Shown here one piece after another: positions 9,958 to 30,267 of a DNA stretch of 31,416 nucleotides. The position numbers were made by a program, and so were the translations under genes. The stretch comes from a virus: positions 1 through 31,416 of IMG/VR virus record IMGVR_UViG_3300035212_002752; one strand, 5' to 3'. Position 1 is the first letter of the stretch. Each line of letters starts with the position of its first letter. The notes beneath the pieces were generated by a model. It did no database searches and was not told the DNA's origin. It was given only the letters and a program-made list of their open reading frames with translations.

Positions 9958-10021
9958 TTTCAACGATACGAATATCAGCCGATTTAGGAATTCATTTTAG
10001 GACAACTATTTTTTTACTCCG

Positions 10022-10060
10022 GTTGGAACGGTTGGAACGGGTTGGAACGCCATTCCAACC
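10022..10060 (+). repeat. GTTGGAACG array A1 (three direct, one inverted copy)
   Basis: Perfect 9-mers lie at 10022-10030, 10031-10039 and 10041-10049, giving periods of 9 and 10 bases. They are followed by an inverted, one-mismatch copy (ATTCCAACC) at 10052-10060. Near-helical phasing suggests binding by a protein that contacts the same face or an adjacent face of DNA. Confidence 0.93.
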
Positions 10061-10105
10061 GTATTTCTAGCCTTCCAGCTGGCTCAGTGTGTGCGTAACT
10101 CACTC

Positions 10106-10146
10106 ATATATATATATTTATTTTATTTTAAAGTATATATATATAA
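10106..10146. other. 41-bp A/T tract, candidate DNA unwinding element
   Basis: Forty of 41 bases are A or T, with alternating TA runs at both ends (a loose inverted repeat) around TTTATTTTATTTTAAAG. It lies between the two GTTGGAACG arrays, 4 bases before array A2. Such tracts melt easily and serve as unwinding elements at origins, a role inferred here from its placement. Confidence 0.6.
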
Positions 10147-10150
10147 GGCG

Positions 10151-10177
10151 GTTGGAACGGTTGGAACGGTTGGAACG
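10151..10177 (+). repeat. GTTGGAACG array A2 (three perfect tandem copies)
   Basis: Three exact 9-bp units lie at 10151-10159, 10160-10168 and 10169-10177, followed by AAAAT. Two units plus AAAAT (23 bp, 10160-10182) recur exactly on the opposite strand at 17827-17849 in the other control region. Confidence 0.95.
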
Positions 10178-10255
10178 AAAATGGTGCCGATGTTTCCAAG
10201 AAAAAGCATATTACAAGCGCGGAAGTGCGCGAGGTTTCCGGAAAAATCTCAACTA

Positions 10256-10276
10256 TTTTTCCAAATTTTGGAAAAA
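10256..10276. promoter_or_regulatory. Perfect 21-bp palindrome, operator-like
   Basis: Two exact 10-base arms (TTTTTCCAAA and its complement TTTGGAAAAA) flank a single central T. The size suits a dimeric DNA-binding protein. It is A/T-rich and lies in the 9958-10512 control region near an 11-bp direct repeat (CAACTATTTTT). The binding factor is unknown. Confidence 0.55.
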
Positions 10277-10481
10277 CACAAAAACACTGGTTTAGATAAT
10301 TATAAAAAAACCGCCACAACACAAAGCAAAACGGCATTTATGGTATTCCTCACCAAATCGCCGAATTTAGCAATCACATAAAACACATAAGCCATTGGCC
10401 GATTGACAGCGGGGGCGCCCTTTAACAACAGGCAATCCCCATTCCGCATCTCTGCTTATATGAAAACTTGCAAATGGCAAT

Positions 10482-10500
10482 CCGTGACTGATGTTCACGG
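10482..10500 (-). other. Hairpin after the terminase gene
   Basis: CCGTGA and TCACGG form a 6-bp stem with a 7-base loop, beginning 12 bases after the terminase stop on the minus strand. No T-run follows, so it does not qualify as a standard intrinsic terminator. It could be an RNA 3'-end, processing or packaging-associated structure. Confidence 0.4.
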
Positions 10501-10512
10501 TTCCAAAAACAA

Positions 10513-14275: not shown

Positions 14276-15226
14276 TTAAGCCTCGTTACCGTTGCACCAG
14301 ATCACAGAGCCATCACGGAAGTTCACACCTGCACGGAAATCCATCATCACTTTGATAGTCCTGTTGAACTCCTGAGTAAGGATGTTCGATGCAGCACCTT
14401 CGATGTCATATCCGAAAACCAAGTTGTCCTTTGGAGTGATAAGGATACGATTTGAATCTGTGCCGACCATTCCAGGGATTGCCACAAGCTGAGTCTGTGT
14501 GCCTTCGATTAATACCTGTGTGTAATCACGGTTGTAAACAACTGAACCAACTGAAGTCTGGTAATCGTCCATGTAGTTGTCAAAGTTGGCAACTGAAAGG
14601 AAGCAATACATTGGCTTGTTGCGATACTGACCAGCAATCTTGTTTCTAACCTTGCGAACCTCATCTAAAGCGTTTGTAGCAGTGATTGCAGTGAACGCAG
14701 TTACATTTGCAGCTGGTATTTCAGTTGAAGTTACTGCGGCTTTTACAAGCTGAAGTAAACCATCCATAGTATCGGCAGATGTAGTGCCAGAACCACTGTA
14801 AGTACCATTCCAAACGGCTCCTTCCAAATCATCCTGCGCCTGTTTTGCGATGGCTTCCATTATGAATTGTTCAAAAGGAATATCAAATGGAGATGATGGC
14901 GGCGCTCCAGCTAATTGACCAAGCCAAGAATTGTAGAGATCCAAAGGAACAATTGAAATGTCAGCAGAAATTCTGCGAGCATTCAAAATCCTTGCTCCAA
15001 AAACCAATGCATCATCTGTGGCAGTAAATCCACCACCAGCAGCATAAGGCTTAAGAATGCTTCCAGTAGTCAATTTGGCTAAAGGAAGTTGATCGATTGA
15101 TCCAGTAAATGTCGTGAAATACTGGGCCGTAGATTCGCGAAGAATCTTGTTAAAAATATCCACCTTCTCCTGGCGAGCATATGCGCCAAGTGCGGAATTG
15201 AGTGCGGTAATGTTTACTGATGCCAT
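14276..15226 (-). CDS. Major capsid protein, HK97-like
   Basis: This 316-aa protein lies immediately after the protease/scaffold gene, the standard order for HK97-type heads. It has the expected layout: a variable N-terminus that the protease may trim, an alpha/beta core (IEGTQTQLVAIPGMVGTD, ILITPKDNLVFGYDIE) and a C-terminal beta strand ending in KVMMDFRAGVNFRDGSVIW. That ending, where the last strand carries FR.GV...G, is typical of this fold. No start ambiguity (ATG 15226). The DNA between it and the protease is only 31 bases, so co-transcription is likely. Confidence 0.87.
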   Translation of the reverse strand: MASVNITALNSALGAYARQEKVDIFNKILRESTAQYFTTFTGSIDQLPLAKLTTGSILKPYAAGGGFTATDDALVFGARILNARRISADISIVPLDLYNSWLGQLAGAPPSSPFDIPFEQFIMEAIAKQAQDDLEGAVWNGTYSGSGTTSADTMDGLLQLVKAAVTSTEIPAANVTAFTAITATNALDEVRKVRNKIAGQYRNKPMYCFLSVANFDNYMDDYQTSVGSVVYNRDYTQVLIEGTQTQLVAIPGMVGTDSNRILITPKDNLVFGYDIEGAASNILTQEFNRTIKVMMDFRAGVNFRDGSVIWCNGNEA

Positions 15227-17831: not shown

Positions 17832-17849
17832 CGTTCCAACCGTTCCAAC
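17832..17849 (-). repeat. GTTGGAACG array B1 (two tandem units)
   Basis: Two exact units lie on the minus strand at 17849-17841 and 17840-17832, followed by AAAAT. Together this is the same 23-bp string as array A2 at 10160-10182 on the plus strand, so the two regions carry it in inverted orientation. Confidence 0.95.
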
Positions 17850-17896
17850 TTTTCTTAGCAGTGTCACCAAACGCACAGAGTTTCAATAAAATAACG

Positions 17897-17958
17897 GTTG
17901 GAACGGGTGTTCCAACTTTTCCAACTTTGTGCAATTTATTGCACGATTGGTTGGAAAG
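17897..17958. repeat. GTTGGAACG array B2 (mixed orientation)
   Basis: One exact plus-strand unit (17897-17905) is followed by an inverted one-mismatch copy TGTTCCAAC (17908-17916), an inverted two-mismatch copy TTTTCCAAC (17917-17925), and a plus-strand GTTGGAAAG (17950-17958). The first pair forms an inverted repeat with a 2-base gap. An operator palindrome is embedded at 17928-17945. Confidence 0.88.
17928..17945. promoter_or_regulatory. Operator-like palindrome, copy 2
   Basis: TGTGCAA-TTTA-TTGCACG is a palindrome with six perfect base pairs per arm and a four-base spacer. It is the same site as the operator over the early promoter (TGTGCAA-TAGC-TTGCACA at 29992-30009), so one regulator probably binds both. 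Confidence 0.7.
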
Positions 17959-20426: not shown

Positions 20427-23294
20427 TTAAAAAGGGACTGAATTGTATTCGACTTGTGGAAGATGATCCGGAACCGCCAATTGTGTTTCGCTAGTGTCAG
20501 CCATATAACTGATTTTACGAATGCTGAAATCATCCTGGAGAATCGTATAATTGAAAACCATGGCTGATGAATTGCTTTCTCCAAACTTCATGGATTTCTT
20601 TTCTCCGATATAGGCCGGTGAATTTTTTAGATAACTACGCAAAGTATCTGAATCCATATATTTCTGGCCTCGCTGCCTCATTTCCTTCGCATATACCGGC
20701 TGGATTTGATTCAACCGTATAAACACCACTTCTGTGGTCTGTGCAAAATTTACAATGGTTTCCGATTTGGCAGAATCCTTTCGCACCGCGATGGCATTTA
20801 ATTCCCGGAAAGTGAATTGGCGATTTTCTTCCAGAATTCCAGAATGCACCAGGTAGGTCATAGCCTCCCAGAACTGGGATGATTCCTCCGAATTCTGCAT
20901 CATGCCGTTTTGCGCCTCGGCAATCTTTTCCAAGCTGATCCGCAATTCATCCTCCACAAATGGAAAATTCATCTTACTGGATAGGGTTTGATAAATCGCC
21001 ATCACAATGGCGCAGTGTTGACCAATCCGGCTCACATTGGTGCCCACAAACCGCTTGGCGAAACGCTTTTTCCAGTGTTTATAATTTGCCGCATAATTCT
21101 CCTCCATTTCTGGGCGGTGCTTTAAAATACTTGTGGCGATTTGCGTCAATGATTCATTTTGCAGTGACTTCAAATCTGAAATCAATTCCATTGATTCTTC
21201 CGAAAAGCCATCGTTTTTGAAAAACTGAAGAAGAACCACCCTCGTGAATAGTGCCACATCTGCCACCGGTAAGTGCTGGCCGGTTATAACAACACTGGAT
21301 TCAATCTGATGGCTCACAGTCCTGTTTGAGGTATTTGACTGAGAAGAATCGGCTTTTAAATATGCATCTCGGTTCCAGATTTGTTTTAAAATTTCTACTT
21401 GTTTCGTGTCCAGTTCATTGTTGTATTCCTCCAATAAAACCATGCCGTTTCGGACTTGTCCAAGCTTTCTGAATAATGCCGCCATTGATACTGAATTGAT
21501 ATTGCTTCCGACTGATTTGCCTTCGGTTTTGTGCAGTAGGCTTAAGATTGAATAAGCCATAGTCGATTTTCCTGACTCCGGTTTGCCGTATAAATAAAGC
21601 ATTGGGAAAAATCCATCTGTCTTAAAAATGATGTCCGAAAACATCGCCATGCAGCAATACATTAATCCGATGCGGCCATTCTCGCCATACACTTTGCAGA
21701 ATAACTCGGCCCAGCTGCTGAATGCGATGTTGCGCTTTACATGGACAAACTCGCGTTCGAATTGATAGGTCATCCGGTTGTTCCGGTATATATCCGAAAG
21801 TGCCGGGAAAAAATAGTTTTTCGTTTTCAAAGTCACGATTCCAAGGTTGTTGATTTCGTGAAATTTCCCATCTGCCAGAATCCCATTTGAAAAAGCAAAG
21901 AATCCATCCTCTTGTTGGCCCAGTGTGTTGATTTCTTTGGCCGCTGGTGTCACCTCATAAAGCCACGATTTTACTTTGGTCCACTCCCGGCGATCAAATA
22001 GTGACCAGAAATTTCCCCTCTCCACATATTTCGCAAATGAATCCACGGAAACAAATGCATCGGTTGTTATGTGGTCAATTCTGCGTTCCTTTTTTGAATT
22101 AACGAATTCAATAATCCTGGTTGTTTTGCCTTCTTCGTCAGTCACCAAATAGTGCGGTGCCATTGTGAAATTTGATTTGGGTTCAAAAGTCATTTCGCCA
22201 TCTCGGATTTTGCCGATGTAGGTGATATTTTTCCAGCTTAGAAATCCATATTTTCGCACAAAATCACCGCATTCTTTTTCCTCTGATTTTGTAAGCTTCA
22301 CCGGGAAACGAATTACCAAAACATTGTTGACCATTTCTTCTGGCTCCTCCGGGCTGGCCTGATTTCCGGATTTCCGGACGGGCTGAACGGATTCCGTGCG
22401 GATAAATTTTCGCATATCGCATCCAGCTTTTTTTGCCTGGCTCAGGAAATATGCCGGATCGCGCCATGTGGTTGTTTTCAGACAGTTGTCGAACTTCAGG
22501 TCGCAATCCTTTTCGTTGTAATCTGGATTGTTTCCGCTTACCTCATGAAATAAATGTCTGCCAGCTTCACCCAGAGATGCCAGAGAAAATCCGATTTTCA
22601 GCCACTCATTGTAACCGGTGGTTAAATCAATCTTGAAAAGATTCACCTGATTGACAATTCCCTGAACATAGTCAAATTCAGATTTTACTTCAAATGTTTG
22701 AAACTGCCTGACATTGGTCAATACCTCACCGGTTTCCATATCAACTTCCATTTCAATGTCCGGCAGATAAACGCTGGAATCCTCGTTCACATATATGTTT
22801 TCATCGATTGATTCAAAACAGGCTCGGCAAATGTCCTTTCCGGATGCATCTAGTTCCAGCCCATATTTGTGATGGAAATATTTCGCCAGGGAATTAAACG
22901 ATTCAAGATGTTTATCGGAATCAATCTTTGCCAATGCTTTTAATCCCTCGCCACCGGTTGACCTAAACATCACCATGATGTAACGGTCTTCCATCAACTG
23001 GAGTGCGACCGCCTCCACATCTCCGACATTATCAAAATCCAAAGTGATCAGTCCGGAATGTTTTTCCAAACTCGCCGCATTTCTCGCGGAGAAAGTGCCA
23101 GAAAAAGTAAAATAGGAACACCGCTTTTTCAGTTCCTTCTTTTTCTTCTCATCGGTTTCAATCCGCACTGGGCGAATTGTCGCATATCCTTTTCCATCCC
23201 GGATATATTCAATGGCCTCATCCAAAAAAACATTTCTGGTCGGCTTGGTAACGGCGATACCGCCCTCAAAAAAACTTACTTGAATGTTTTTCAT
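20427..23294 (-). CDS. Primase-helicase (VirE_N-type primase plus AAA/SF3-like ATPase)
   Basis: This 955-aa replication protein has an N-terminal VirE_N/BT4734-like primase domain: LDFDNV with DxD at 86-88, RSTGGEGLKA at 111-120, and CRACFES at 156-162. A PriCT-2-like region follows (about 222-293), then a linker and an ATPase domain. Walker A is GKPESGKST (570-578), Walker B is MVLLEEYN (acidic pair 622-623), and SSVVITGQ (666-673) is a probable sensor. The chain would synthesise primers and unwind DNA, making replication partly host-independent. The start overlaps the small DNA-binding gene by ATGA. No DNA polymerase gene was seen, so the host polymerase is presumably used. Confidence 0.86.
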   Translation of the reverse strand: MKNIQVSFFEGGIAVTKPTRNVFLDEAIEYIRDGKGYATIRPVRIETDEKKKKELKKRCSYFTFSGTFSARNAASLEKHSGLITLDFDNVGDVEAVALQLMEDRYIMVMFRSTGGEGLKALAKIDSDKHLESFNSLAKYFHHKYGLELDASGKDICRACFESIDENIYVNEDSSVYLPDIEMEVDMETGEVLTNVRQFQTFEVKSEFDYVQGIVNQVNLFKIDLTTGYNEWLKIGFSLASLGEAGRHLFHEVSGNNPDYNEKDCDLKFDNCLKTTTWRDPAYFLSQAKKAGCDMRKFIRTESVQPVRKSGNQASPEEPEEMVNNVLVIRFPVKLTKSEEKECGDFVRKYGFLSWKNITYIGKIRDGEMTFEPKSNFTMAPHYLVTDEEGKTTRIIEFVNSKKERRIDHITTDAFVSVDSFAKYVERGNFWSLFDRREWTKVKSWLYEVTPAAKEINTLGQQEDGFFAFSNGILADGKFHEINNLGIVTLKTKNYFFPALSDIYRNNRMTYQFEREFVHVKRNIAFSSWAELFCKVYGENGRIGLMYCCMAMFSDIIFKTDGFFPMLYLYGKPESGKSTMAYSILSLLHKTEGKSVGSNINSVSMAALFRKLGQVRNGMVLLEEYNNELDTKQVEILKQIWNRDAYLKADSSQSNTSNRTVSHQIESSVVITGQHLPVADVALFTRVVLLQFFKNDGFSEESMELISDLKSLQNESLTQIATSILKHRPEMEENYAANYKHWKKRFAKRFVGTNVSRIGQHCAIVMAIYQTLSSKMNFPFVEDELRISLEKIAEAQNGMMQNSEESSQFWEAMTYLVHSGILEENRQFTFRELNAIAVRKDSAKSETIVNFAQTTEVVFIRLNQIQPVYAKEMRQRGQKYMDSDTLRSYLKNSPAYIGEKKSMKFGESNSSAMVFNYTILQDDFSIRKISYMADTSETQLAVPDHLPQVEYNSVPF

Positions 23295-23506
23295 ATTTCC
23301 TCAGCCAGAACTTCTTTGATTTCGTTTAATAATGCCCAGTCTTTAAACTGTCCAGAAATAACCCTGTACACTTGACTTTGCGTAACTGGCTTTCCTTTTT
23401 TCTGCGCTGCGGAAATCACTTTATCCGTGTATCCGAAATAAGTCAACCCTTTGACTTCATTTAAAACCGCCAAATATTGCGGCCGATCTTTTCGTCTTAT
23501 CGCCAT
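23291..23506 (-). CDS. Small DNA-binding-type protein, 71 aa
   Basis: The ATG at 23506 (MAIRRKDRPQYLAVLNEV) is preferred over a TTG 24 bases earlier, which lies inside the likely promoter. It is a basic helical protein with VTQSQVYRVISGQFKDWALL, the pattern of a helix-turn-helix in which an SQVYRV helix reads DNA. It starts the replication operon and overlaps the primase-helicase start, so it may regulate the operon or assist at the origin. Confidence 0.7.
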   Translation of the reverse strand: MAIRRKDRPQYLAVLNEVKGLTYFGYTDKVISAAQKKGKPVTQSQVYRVISGQFKDWALLNEIKEVLAEEI

Positions 23507-27173: not shown

Positions 27174-27391
27174 CGTAGTTCAATGGTTTTATCGTCCGGA
27201 ATAAAGTTGGTGCCGTTAGTTCCTGTCAGCTTCATGTAACTGACTTCAACTTTGGCCGAATTTATCACGGCATTGGCGACCTCTGCCACGACTCTGGCTC
27301 GTTCAATATCCATTGGCTGGTCCTGATCCAGGAGCGATTCAATGGTGGCGAAAAGATGGTTTCGCAAATCTTCAATCTTATTCTTTGGCAT
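27170..27391 (-). CDS. Small conserved-type phage protein, 73 aa
   Basis: The pattern IEDLRNHLFATIESLLDQDQ followed by MDIERARVVAEVANAVINSA, then VEVSYMKLTG, recalls a small helical protein seen in many phages and prophages without known function. It lies 14 bases inside the HNH gene end and overlaps the membrane-protein gene by ATGA. A helical, possibly oligomeric accessory protein. Confidence 0.74.
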   Translation of the reverse strand: MPKNKIEDLRNHLFATIESLLDQDQPMDIERARVVAEVANAVINSAKVEVSYMKLTGTNGTNFIPDDKTIELR

Positions 27392-27995
27392 CGCAAATTC
27401 TGTTTATTTTATTTTTTAACCTGATTAACTCTTTCAAATCCTCCGGCAAATTATGGATGGTATTGTTTGCCATATTTTCTGCCCGACTAATTAGCCGGAG
27501 ATTGCCCAAAACGCAGTTCAGTGGATTTCCATCTATGAACTTTAGCGCATATCCAGCCGGTACCCTTCCGTGTTCCGACTCCCACATCCATTTGTGTTTT
27601 AAAACATATTGGCGATCCCTCAATTTGACCATCAAATATCCATCTTTTGTAATTCGCTCGTGGCCCACTTCCTTAGTGTTCCAGGGCTTATTGCCTTTGG
27701 GGAAAAATGTCTTTGAAACCTTGTCCCTGATGGACTCGCTCAGCCTTTTGCCCTTATTGTAACTTACTCCGCCGGGCTTGTAACGATAAGCTTCTCCACT
27801 TTTTTTTAATTTCTGCGCTTCTTTCATCAGCATTTCGTGAATGTATGCCGGATCTTTTTTTAATCCCAGCACTTGCGCCCTTCCAACAATGCTTCCATAA
27901 CTCCTATGCATTGCCTCAGCCACTTCCATGTTGTGCATTTGAGGGTAAATATTGACCAACTTACGGTCTTCCTCTGGACTCCAGTGTTTCTTCAT
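27378..27995 (-). CDS. HNH endonuclease with N-terminal Myb-like domain
   Basis: This 205-aa protein starts with a Myb/SANT-like DNA-binding part (about residues 1-45: KKHWSPEEDRKLVNIYPQ, RSYGSIVGRAQVLGL). A basic linker follows, and then an HNH domain at about 110-178: LKHKWMWE with His134, KFIDGNPLNC with Asn160, GNLRLISRAEN. This matches a family of phage HNH nucleases that often act as homing enzymes or in packaging. The position usually taken by the central His is Phe153 here, as in other phage members, so the active site may use other residues. It overlaps its neighbours by 14 and 35 bases. Without a nearby intron or target, homing is only one option. Confidence 0.86.
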   Translation of the reverse strand: MKKHWSPEEDRKLVNIYPQMHNMEVAEAMHRSYGSIVGRAQVLGLKKDPAYIHEMLMKEAQKLKKSGEAYRYKPGGVSYNKGKRLSESIRDKVSKTFFPKGNKPWNTKEVGHERITKDGYLMVKLRDRQYVLKHKWMWESEHGRVPAGYALKFIDGNPLNCVLGNLRLISRAENMANNTIHNLPEDLKELIRLKNKINRICDAKE

Positions 27996-29064: not shown

Positions 29065-29263
29065 CAGTTTCAATTTTGATTTTATATCCCAGGATTCGGG
29101 CATATTGTAAAGTCCGATTAAGGCTGATATTTCGACCAGTCTCCATTTTCGAAACTGCTGACCTATCGATTCCCATTGATTCCGCAATCTCTGCCTGAGA
29201 TTTGCGCTGGCGAATGCGCTCCGCCTTAAGCCGTGTAAAAATGCTTCTGATTTCATCGTTCAT
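29048..29263 (-). CDS. Cro/CI-type helix-turn-helix regulator
   Basis: This 71-aa protein has a classic HTH_3 (XRE) helix-turn-helix at residues 22-42 (SQAEIAESMGIDRSAVSKME), flanked by a basic helix (FTRLKAERIRQRK) and a C-terminal helix (NRTLQYARILGYKI). Being early and small, it resembles a Cro-like repressor. The shared palindrome at 29992-30009 and 17928-17945 is a natural binding-site candidate. The start overlaps the 72-aa gene stop by ATGA. No separate CI-type repressor or opposing promoter was found, so a lysogeny switch is not supported. Confidence 0.86.
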   Translation of the reverse strand: MNDEIRSIFTRLKAERIRQRKSQAEIAESMGIDRSAVSKMETGRNISLNRTLQYARILGYKIKIETDGLEN

Positions 29264-29478
29264 AATTTTAATTTGCTGATAAGTTTTCCATTTTCATCAT
29301 AAAATTCGTGGCGAATACTTATGATTTTGCCCGAAAAATCGGGGCGAATATTGACCCAATCGTTTACCCTACTGTTGGCAGCTGGGACATTGAATTTTTT
29401 TGATTGTTTCAGATTTAAAAAATGCACCATCTCCCTGATGCCATTTAAATTTTCAATTATAAAATGGCTTATAACCAT
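29260..29478 (-). CDS. Early protein, unknown, 72 aa
   Basis: This is a basic, beta-rich protein (KKFNVPAANSRVNDWVNIRP; GKIISIRHEFYDENGKLISK). The ATG at 29476-29478 overlaps the last ten bases of the 45-aa gene, and the end overlaps the HTH gene by ATGA. The C-terminal hairpin pattern suggests a small SH3- or OB-like barrel. No match to a named family. Confidence 0.68.
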   Translation of the reverse strand: MVISHFIIENLNGIREMVHFLNLKQSKKFNVPAANSRVNDWVNIRPDFSGKIISIRHEFYDENGKLISKLKL

Positions 29479-29606
29479 GATTTAAGGTCATTTACAATTT
29501 TACGATTTACCAAATGATTGTTTCCGTTCAGTTGATACCACCATTCGAGGATAAATTGAGCGCCAATTACTGTTTTGACCATTTTGACTTTCATAAACTT
29601 TTTCAT
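29469..29606 (-). CDS. Small early protein, 45 aa
   Basis: ATG at 29606; product starts MKKFMKVKMVKTVIGAQFIL and ends NDLKSWL. The reading frame is complete and overlaps the next gene by ten bases, as with its neighbours. It has a basic N-terminus and a Trp-rich centre (EWWYQLNGNNH). Short length keeps confidence moderate, but the tight overlap and sensible composition favour a real gene. Confidence 0.52.
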   Translation of the reverse strand: MKKFMKVKMVKTVIGAQFILEWWYQLNGNNHLVNRKIVNDLKSWL

Positions 29607-29626
29607 CGCTTTTGTTTGTTTAAAAA

Positions 29627-29722
29627 TTAAAAAGAAGTTAGTGCCATTGCGGCAATCAGGAATGCAAAAAATCTTAATAGATGGTAAAGATTTTCTTTGA
29701 AAGGTGTTTCAGGCAGTTGCAT
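29627..29722 (-). CDS. Small hydrophobic protein, 31 aa
   Basis: ATG at 29722; the product contains a single hydrophobic helix (YHLLRFFAFLIAAMALTSF) after a polar start (MQLPETPFKEN). It fills the only gap between the 65-aa and 45-aa genes in this early operon. A membrane microprotein is the straightforward reading. Only composition and position support it. Confidence 0.45.
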   Translation of the reverse strand: MQLPETPFKENLYHLLRFFAFLIAAMALTSF

Positions 29723-29734
29723 AATTTTAAAAAA

Positions 29735-29932
29735 TTACAATGCTTTTAGCTGTGAATAATAAGTTTCAATCAATAAGCTTGATGCCAAATCTTCTCCAGC
29801 TTCATCAAAGTCAAACAAGTTTAATGATGTTGCCCATGTATCTGGGTGATTAACATTACCAAAAATTGAACAAGCATTTAAAATTTGAACTTTAAAGTTT
29901 GAAAAATTGGAGGCGGTGATAACTAATTTCAT
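29735..29932 (-). CDS. First gene of the early operon, unknown, 65 aa
   Basis: The ATG at 29932 (MKLVITASNFSNFKVQILNA) is chosen because the TTG at 29971 lies inside the promoter's -7 element. It is an acidic, mixed protein (NLFDFDEAGEDLASSLLIET). It is the first product of the early promoter, with a leader of about 30 bases. Early position suggests a host take-over or anti-defence role; no domain was recognised. Confidence 0.66.
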   Translation of the reverse strand: MKLVITASNFSNFKVQILNACSIFGNVNHPDTWATSLNLFDFDEAGEDLASSLLIETYYSQLKAL

Positions 29933-29968
29933 TTTGCTTTCGTTTATTTCTGCTCCGTTGCAGTGAGA

Positions 29969-29998
29969 CAAATGTACTACCTTTTTTTAATTGTGCAA
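29969..29998 (-). promoter_or_regulatory. Early promoter, flavobacterial type
   Basis: On the minus strand TTG (29998-29996), a 19-base spacer and TACATTTG (29976-29969) match the flavobacterial consensus exactly. The start would be near 29963. The operator palindrome at 29992-30009 covers the -33 element, so a bound regulator would block it. Confidence 0.78.
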
Positions 29999-30009
29999 TA
30001 GCTTGCACA
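29992..30009. promoter_or_regulatory. Operator palindrome over the early promoter
   Basis: TGTGCAA-TAGC-TTGCACA is a perfect palindrome (seven bases per arm, four-base spacer) overlapping the early -33 element. The same site recurs at 17928-17945. It is suited to a dimeric helix-turn-helix regulator such as the 71-aa protein at 29048-29263. Confidence 0.8.
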
Positions 30010-30054
30010 CTTTTTATAAAAAATATTAGAAAACTTTTTTTCGCATCCTAAAAA

Positions 30055-30267
30055 TCAATTGGATAGCGTTTCCACAATCATTTCTGAGTTTATCTGAACC
30101 ACTCCGTTGATTGTGGTTTCGTTAGCTACTAAAGCAATTATTGATAGATAAATATCATTTTGAATTGTCACCAAAACATTTACATCTGAAGTTGAATCTA
30201 TTTCAATAACTTCATAGTTAATATCATCAAAAAATAAAATTTTATTAATGAATAATAGTTCTTTCAT
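30055..30267 (-). CDS. Last late gene, unknown, 70 aa
   Basis: This is an acidic, beta-rich protein (FDDINYEVIEIDSTSDVNVL; TTINGVVQINSEMIVETLSN). The ATG overlaps the stop of the fibre candidate by TAATG, so it is coupled to the tail operon. It could be a fibre-assembly chaperone or small tail component. No known family was recognised. No hairpin terminator was seen after it; the early promoter region follows 46 bases later. Confidence 0.66.
   Translation of the reverse strand: MKELLFINKILFFDDINYEVIEIDSTSDVNVLVTIQNDIYLSIIALVANETTINGVVQINSEMIVETLSN

Follow-up and report, generated by a model that had tools for sequence, protein, structure and literature searches.

The window, that is the whole 31,416-nt stretch of DNA analysed here, is an IMG/VR virus contig whose 127-nt terminal overlap closes it to a circle of 31,289 bp. 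All genes of the map used are carried on the minus strand. An intergenic gap of 555 bp (positions 9958-10512) contains six exact copies of GTTGGAACG, together with a single near-copy in inverted orientation and an A/T tract of 41 bp (array 1 and its tract; Table 1), which confirms what the preliminary description of this DNA had reported. Successive direct copies are spaced by 9, 10, 110, 9 and 9 bp, and the tract possesses an AT content of 0.97, with one G in 41 positions; a 40-mer as AT-rich as this occurs in about 1% of 350-bp windows in the genome. With up to one mismatch allowed, GTTGGAACG gives 16 matches against 6.6 expected, and the largest cluster of a non-A/T 9-mer in 30 first-order Markov simulations comprised two to three copies, compared to the six observed. 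The gap had also been described as standing out among genes that nearly all touch; its length is real, but further gaps of 699, 744 and 1010 bp are present. The last of these (29257-30266) is of low GC content (about 31%) and is without a long minus-strand ORF. A 96-aa ORF on the plus strand (10091-10381), running through triplet B, was regarded as spurious, all other mapped genes being on the minus strand. A DnaA-box-like sequence (AGTTAYGCACR) adjoining the A/T tract is conserved in relatives of the phage and takes the form TTATGCACG in one of them (G004).

Table 1. Features of the window phage discussed in the text (positions in the window)
Feature	Position	Strand	Remarks
Iteron triplet A, GTTGGAACG x3 (10022, 10031, 10041)	10022-10049	+	kept in G001-G004
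Inverted iteron GTTGGAATG, one mismatch	10051-10059	-	also inverted in relatives
DnaA-box-like TTACGCACA, one mismatch to TTATNCACA	10090-10098	-	putative function
A/T tract, 41 bp, TA alternation at both ends, candidate unwinding element	10106-10146		A/T character conserved
Iteron triplet B, GTTGGAACG x3 (10151, 10160, 10169)	10151-10177	+	exact copies, conserved
Predicted 12-nt cos overhang, GGCGCCCCCGCT on the minus strand, physical ends on either side	10408-10419		from contig ends of relatives
Array 2, tandem GTTGGAACG pair	17832-17849	-	conserved in relatives
Array 2, GTTGGAACG	17897-17905	+	conserved in relatives
Array 2, GTTGGAACA	17908-17916	-	conserved in relatives
Array 2, GTTGGAAAG	17950-17958	+	conserved in relatives
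Primase-helicase (BT4734-like_N + PriCT_2, P-loop helicase part), candidate initiator	20427-23294	-	
Small HTH-like protein, directly upstream of the primase-helicase, alternative iteron binder	23291-23506	-	HTH recognised by eye

A second cluster of GTTGGAACG (array 2, 17832-17958), missed by the preliminary description, is located in the gap of 699 bp that precedes the capsid operon; it lies 2.5 kb downstream of the primase-helicase gene and 7.4 kb from the predicted cos site. A conserved, operator-like palindrome, GTGCAATAAATTGCAC (17931-17946), adjoins this array. Five IMG/VR contigs were found to carry both the terminase and the primase-helicase of the window phage. Array 1 and the A/T tract are kept in all four of the relatives that cover the site (G001-G004) and array 2 in all five, with DNA identity to the window being about 70-76% for two of the relatives with conserved clusters; the expectation that the motif would recur in related phages was therefore borne out across the clade. 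Loss of the array from homologues that keep the primase-helicase, which had been named as an argument against an origin, was not seen in this near family, but about half of ten distant loci lack arrays. Among GTDB genomes the 18-mer was located in 30 stretches from scattered taxa, which were not taken as relatives of the window phage. The switch in GC skew that had been predicted near 10.1 kb was not found, the detrended minimum being at 29.2 kb and the maximum at 21.9 kb; skew is hard to interpret in this genome because of the placement of all genes on one strand.

The 555-bp gap also holds a cos-like site that had been overlooked. Both ends of contigs G001 and G004 flank the same 12-nt sequence, and the right end of G005 and the left end of G003 fall at this site within an alignment uncertainty of a few bases, while the window and G002 read through it (TTGTTAAAG, GGCGCCCCCGCT and GTCAATCGG in succession). 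A fixed end site and a short gap between contig ends, by which a 3' cos is recognised, are thus both present, and the absence of the 12 nt from the linear contigs is what would be expected from end repair of a 3' overhang. An HNH protein is often required by 3' cos phages; an HNH_3 endonuclease gene of the window phage is found at 27378-27995, distant from the terminase.

Two proteins were considered as candidate binders of the iterons. Pfam analysis of the primase-helicase identified only BT4734-like_N and PriCT_2, with no match to D5_N, DUF5906 or Pox_D5, all three of which are matched by the alpha protein of phage P4. Structure prediction of the full-length protein was unusable (pLDDT 33), and a PDB sequence search gave nothing informative. 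Residues 789-955 were modelled at a pLDDT of 79, the last part forming two helices followed by a two-strand hairpin; a PDB fold search with this model returned no significant match, and a C-terminal winged helix is not confirmed despite the confidence of the model. These residues resemble the C termini of other phage Toprim/primase proteins. The small HTH-like protein encoded next to the primase-helicase showed no Pfam match.

Arrays of the same layout were sought in unrelated phages. A relaxed 9-bp-phased pattern (TTGGAACNNTTGGAACNNTTGGAA) gave 46 stretches, about half of which are coding repeats and were set aside. The remainder are intergenic, often mixed-orientation arrays in phages with a GC content of 0.34-0.60. 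Outside the clade of the window phage, nine of 15 records with TTGGAAC arrays encode a D5/DUF5906, VapE or window-type primase-helicase within about 2.6 kb. Among the six without a nearby SF3-like helicase, four records of two clades possess an AAA ATPase of another kind at a distance of a few kb, one possesses an S24 repressor (with an rve protein in its close relative), and for one nothing relevant was found nearby. Phages with TTGGAAC arrays but no such helicase nearby include L163, L169, L179 and L190 (G032-G034 and G036): in the first three an AAA ATPase of approximately 364 aa lies a few kb from the array, and in G036 TerL is near the array, which includes a 95% AT 40-mer. The arrays of L198 and L199 (G037 and G038) consist of TTGGAACTT in all-direct order and adjoin the S24 repressor gene, with G037 also encoding an rve-domain protein; these are probably operators and not an origin.

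As a control, a scan with the reversed 18-mer was performed (58 loci). Arrays were present at only four of these (AAGGTTG repeats, for the most part 9-bp-phased, with an AT content of 53-82% at the array), and the four records concerned (L034, L038, L047 and L069) are those with VapE, which is near the array in three of them and, provided that the contig is circular, at a distance of 1.6 kb in the fourth. No VapE or DUF5906 was identified in the other control records searched (0/24), and the backward pattern had no match in the array records. Pooling gives a helicase in 13 of 19 array records against none of 24 controls (Fisher p 7e-7), a value that is optimistic in that the control arrays were pooled after being seen and some records are close relatives. 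A scan by layout only added three records, two of which belong to a single clade. In L224 the end of a D5 helicase gene is separated from the array by 5 bp, and the same sequence is present in L223. Comparisons with ten distant loci encoding homologues of the window primase, cultured or metagenomic, showed arrays at five; most of these are built from other motifs, and each is located no more than 3 kb downstream of the primase gene. The spacer between iteron groups is similar in several of the phages: 110 bp in the window phage, 119 bp in G025 and G026, 120 bp in G027, 118 bp in G036 and 101 bp in G039. Array 40-mers across the phages sharing this spacer, the window phage included, are 78-97% AT, two unrelated phages among them having a genome GC content of 0.54-0.57. 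Against genome background the A/T signal is strong in the window phage, G025, G026, G036 and G039, less marked in G027 and within the ordinary range in G023 and G030. Like the window phage, G025 and G026 have two sites.

A related phage, G018, differs in its replication module. It is syntenic with the window phage over the terminase, portal and capsid genes (TerL 61%, portal 65% and MCP 63% identical) and carries a cos-like TGTTAAAG site, but no array was found at that site or upstream of its capsid operon. The window primase-helicase had no BLAST hit in G018, which instead encodes a DUF3987 helicase adjoining a TTTGGACCG array (14656-14904). Since cos and the late operons are kept there without the arrays, the latter appear, as judged from this one genome with a diverged TerS (only 37.5% identical), to go with the replication module and not with packaging or late transcription.

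Taken with the conservation of the locus and the same-layout arrays near primase-helicases in unrelated phages, which support the earlier iteron-origin interpretation, region 10022-10177 is likely to be the core of a replication origin, its two triplets being bound by a phage initiator and array 2 serving as a second site. The distance of 10 kb between array 1 and the helicase gene speaks against this reading. The following course of initiation is inferred, both for the protein that acts as initiator and for the loading of rings, the melting, the direction and the part played by array 2. The initiator, most likely the primase-helicase, would bind both 9-bp-phased triplets through its C-terminal domain and open the A/T tract between them; helicase rings would then assemble, unwind outward and prime synthesis, while array 2 may act as a second initiator-binding site in the manner of P4 crr.

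The distance of only 230-390 bp from array 1 to the predicted packaging end raises another explanation, namely a cosB-like element in which the arrays bind the small terminase subunit at cos and position cleavage. Array 1 indeed separates cos from the first head gene, and TerS-TerL is found on the opposite side. However, repeats are not kept at cos in G018, even though its terminase, portal and cos-like site are the same (its diverged TerS could recognise another sequence); all relatives carry the second same-motif array far from cos, and the arrays of unrelated phages are mostly found by primase-helicases, not terminases. A role of this kind is considered highly improbable. Scarcely more plausible is that the arrays are operators of a phage regulator switching on two late operons, each array being upstream of one. 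It is true that the two operons concerned, portal and capsid-terminase, follow arrays 1 and 2 respectively, that a TGTCCT element is found downstream of both and that the similar TTGGAACTT array of L198/L199 adjoins a repressor gene, but G018 keeps both operons without arrays, and an origin better accounts for triplets on both sides of a conserved A/T tract.

A different question is whether the origin type is right but the iterons are bound by the small HTH-like protein or another small protein. The gene of the former is directly upstream of that of the primase-helicase, and a homologue exists in G018, where the iteron (TTTGGACCG) is similar and the helicase is unrelated to that of the window phage by BLAST. 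On the other hand, iteron binding in P4 and the SaPIs is carried out by alpha and Rep themselves (PMC7581432; P4 record), and elsewhere the shared TTGGAAC motif tracks helicases, in a comparison that covered the helicases. A small binder is therefore regarded as unlikely, and the origin bound by the primase-helicase itself as the preferred reading.

To our knowledge, most origins have yet to be mapped in phages whose primase-helicase is of the VapE, D5 or BT4734 type. 9-bp-phased TTGGAAC iterons with an A/T spacer of approximately 110 bp may constitute an origin code shared by BT4734/window-type, D5/DUF5906 and VapE helicases, with the origin having moved beside the packaging end in the clade of the window phage; this proposal falls a little short of an even chance. 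If true, it would permit sequence-based origin prediction across unrelated phages. The recurrence of the signature beside several helicase families would extend such prediction to many uncultured phages, and suggests that the target of the initiator is more conserved than the initiator. A P4-like two-site layout outside the P4 lineage, as defined by Pfam, would also open the function of the second site to testing.

Comparisons with known systems show partial likeness in each case. Polaribacter phage Leef (Helgolandviridae), which is distantly related, has a TerL 28% identical to that of the window phage, the same portal/terminase order round its ends, and Cos 3' ends predicted by PhageTerm (PMC8776804). 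Its replication region differs, and no GTTGGAACG array was found at its left end. Six copies of AAGATTACA lie between its integrase gene and head genes (L133:29148-29389), possibly representing att arm sites or an origin. The R sites of lambda cosB bind terminase and position cos cleavage; array 1 resembles them in placing repeats beside cos and differs in that repeats are absent at the G018 cos and a second copy is far from cos. SaPI Rep and SCCmec Cch2 bind iterons downstream of their own genes via a C-terminal domain (PMC7581432), and the window phage shares with them iterons near the gene of a self-loading helicase. In contrast to SaPI Rep, neither array 1 (10 kb from the gene) nor array 2 (2.5 kb) is directly downstream; the second array and the sequence family also set the window phage apart from SaPI Rep and Cch2.

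The closest functional match is P4, with its ori, crr and alpha primase-helicase. The ori of P4 consists of three direct repeats, one inverted repeat, an AT-rich stretch and two direct repeats, and the order in the window phage is the same, with three direct repeats at the end; its inverted iteron stands where P4 ori has its one type 1 repeat in inverted orientation. In both, phasing is near one helical turn (9, 10, 9 and 9 bp in the window phage; 10, 11 and 10 bp in P4), and the iterons TTGGAACG of the window phage and GGTGAACA of P4 have GAAC in common. In the P4 record, crr comprises type 1 repeats in 9-bp phase and directly follows alpha, with ori 4.7 kb away, whereas the second site of the window phage is 2.5 kb downstream of the helicase gene; the mechanism of crr beyond that record is general knowledge. 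Unlike that of P4, the putative ori of the window phage adjoins cos, and its helicase is without the P4-type Pfam matches. By this analogy, the window phage would work like P4 without being, by Pfam, a member of the P4 family.
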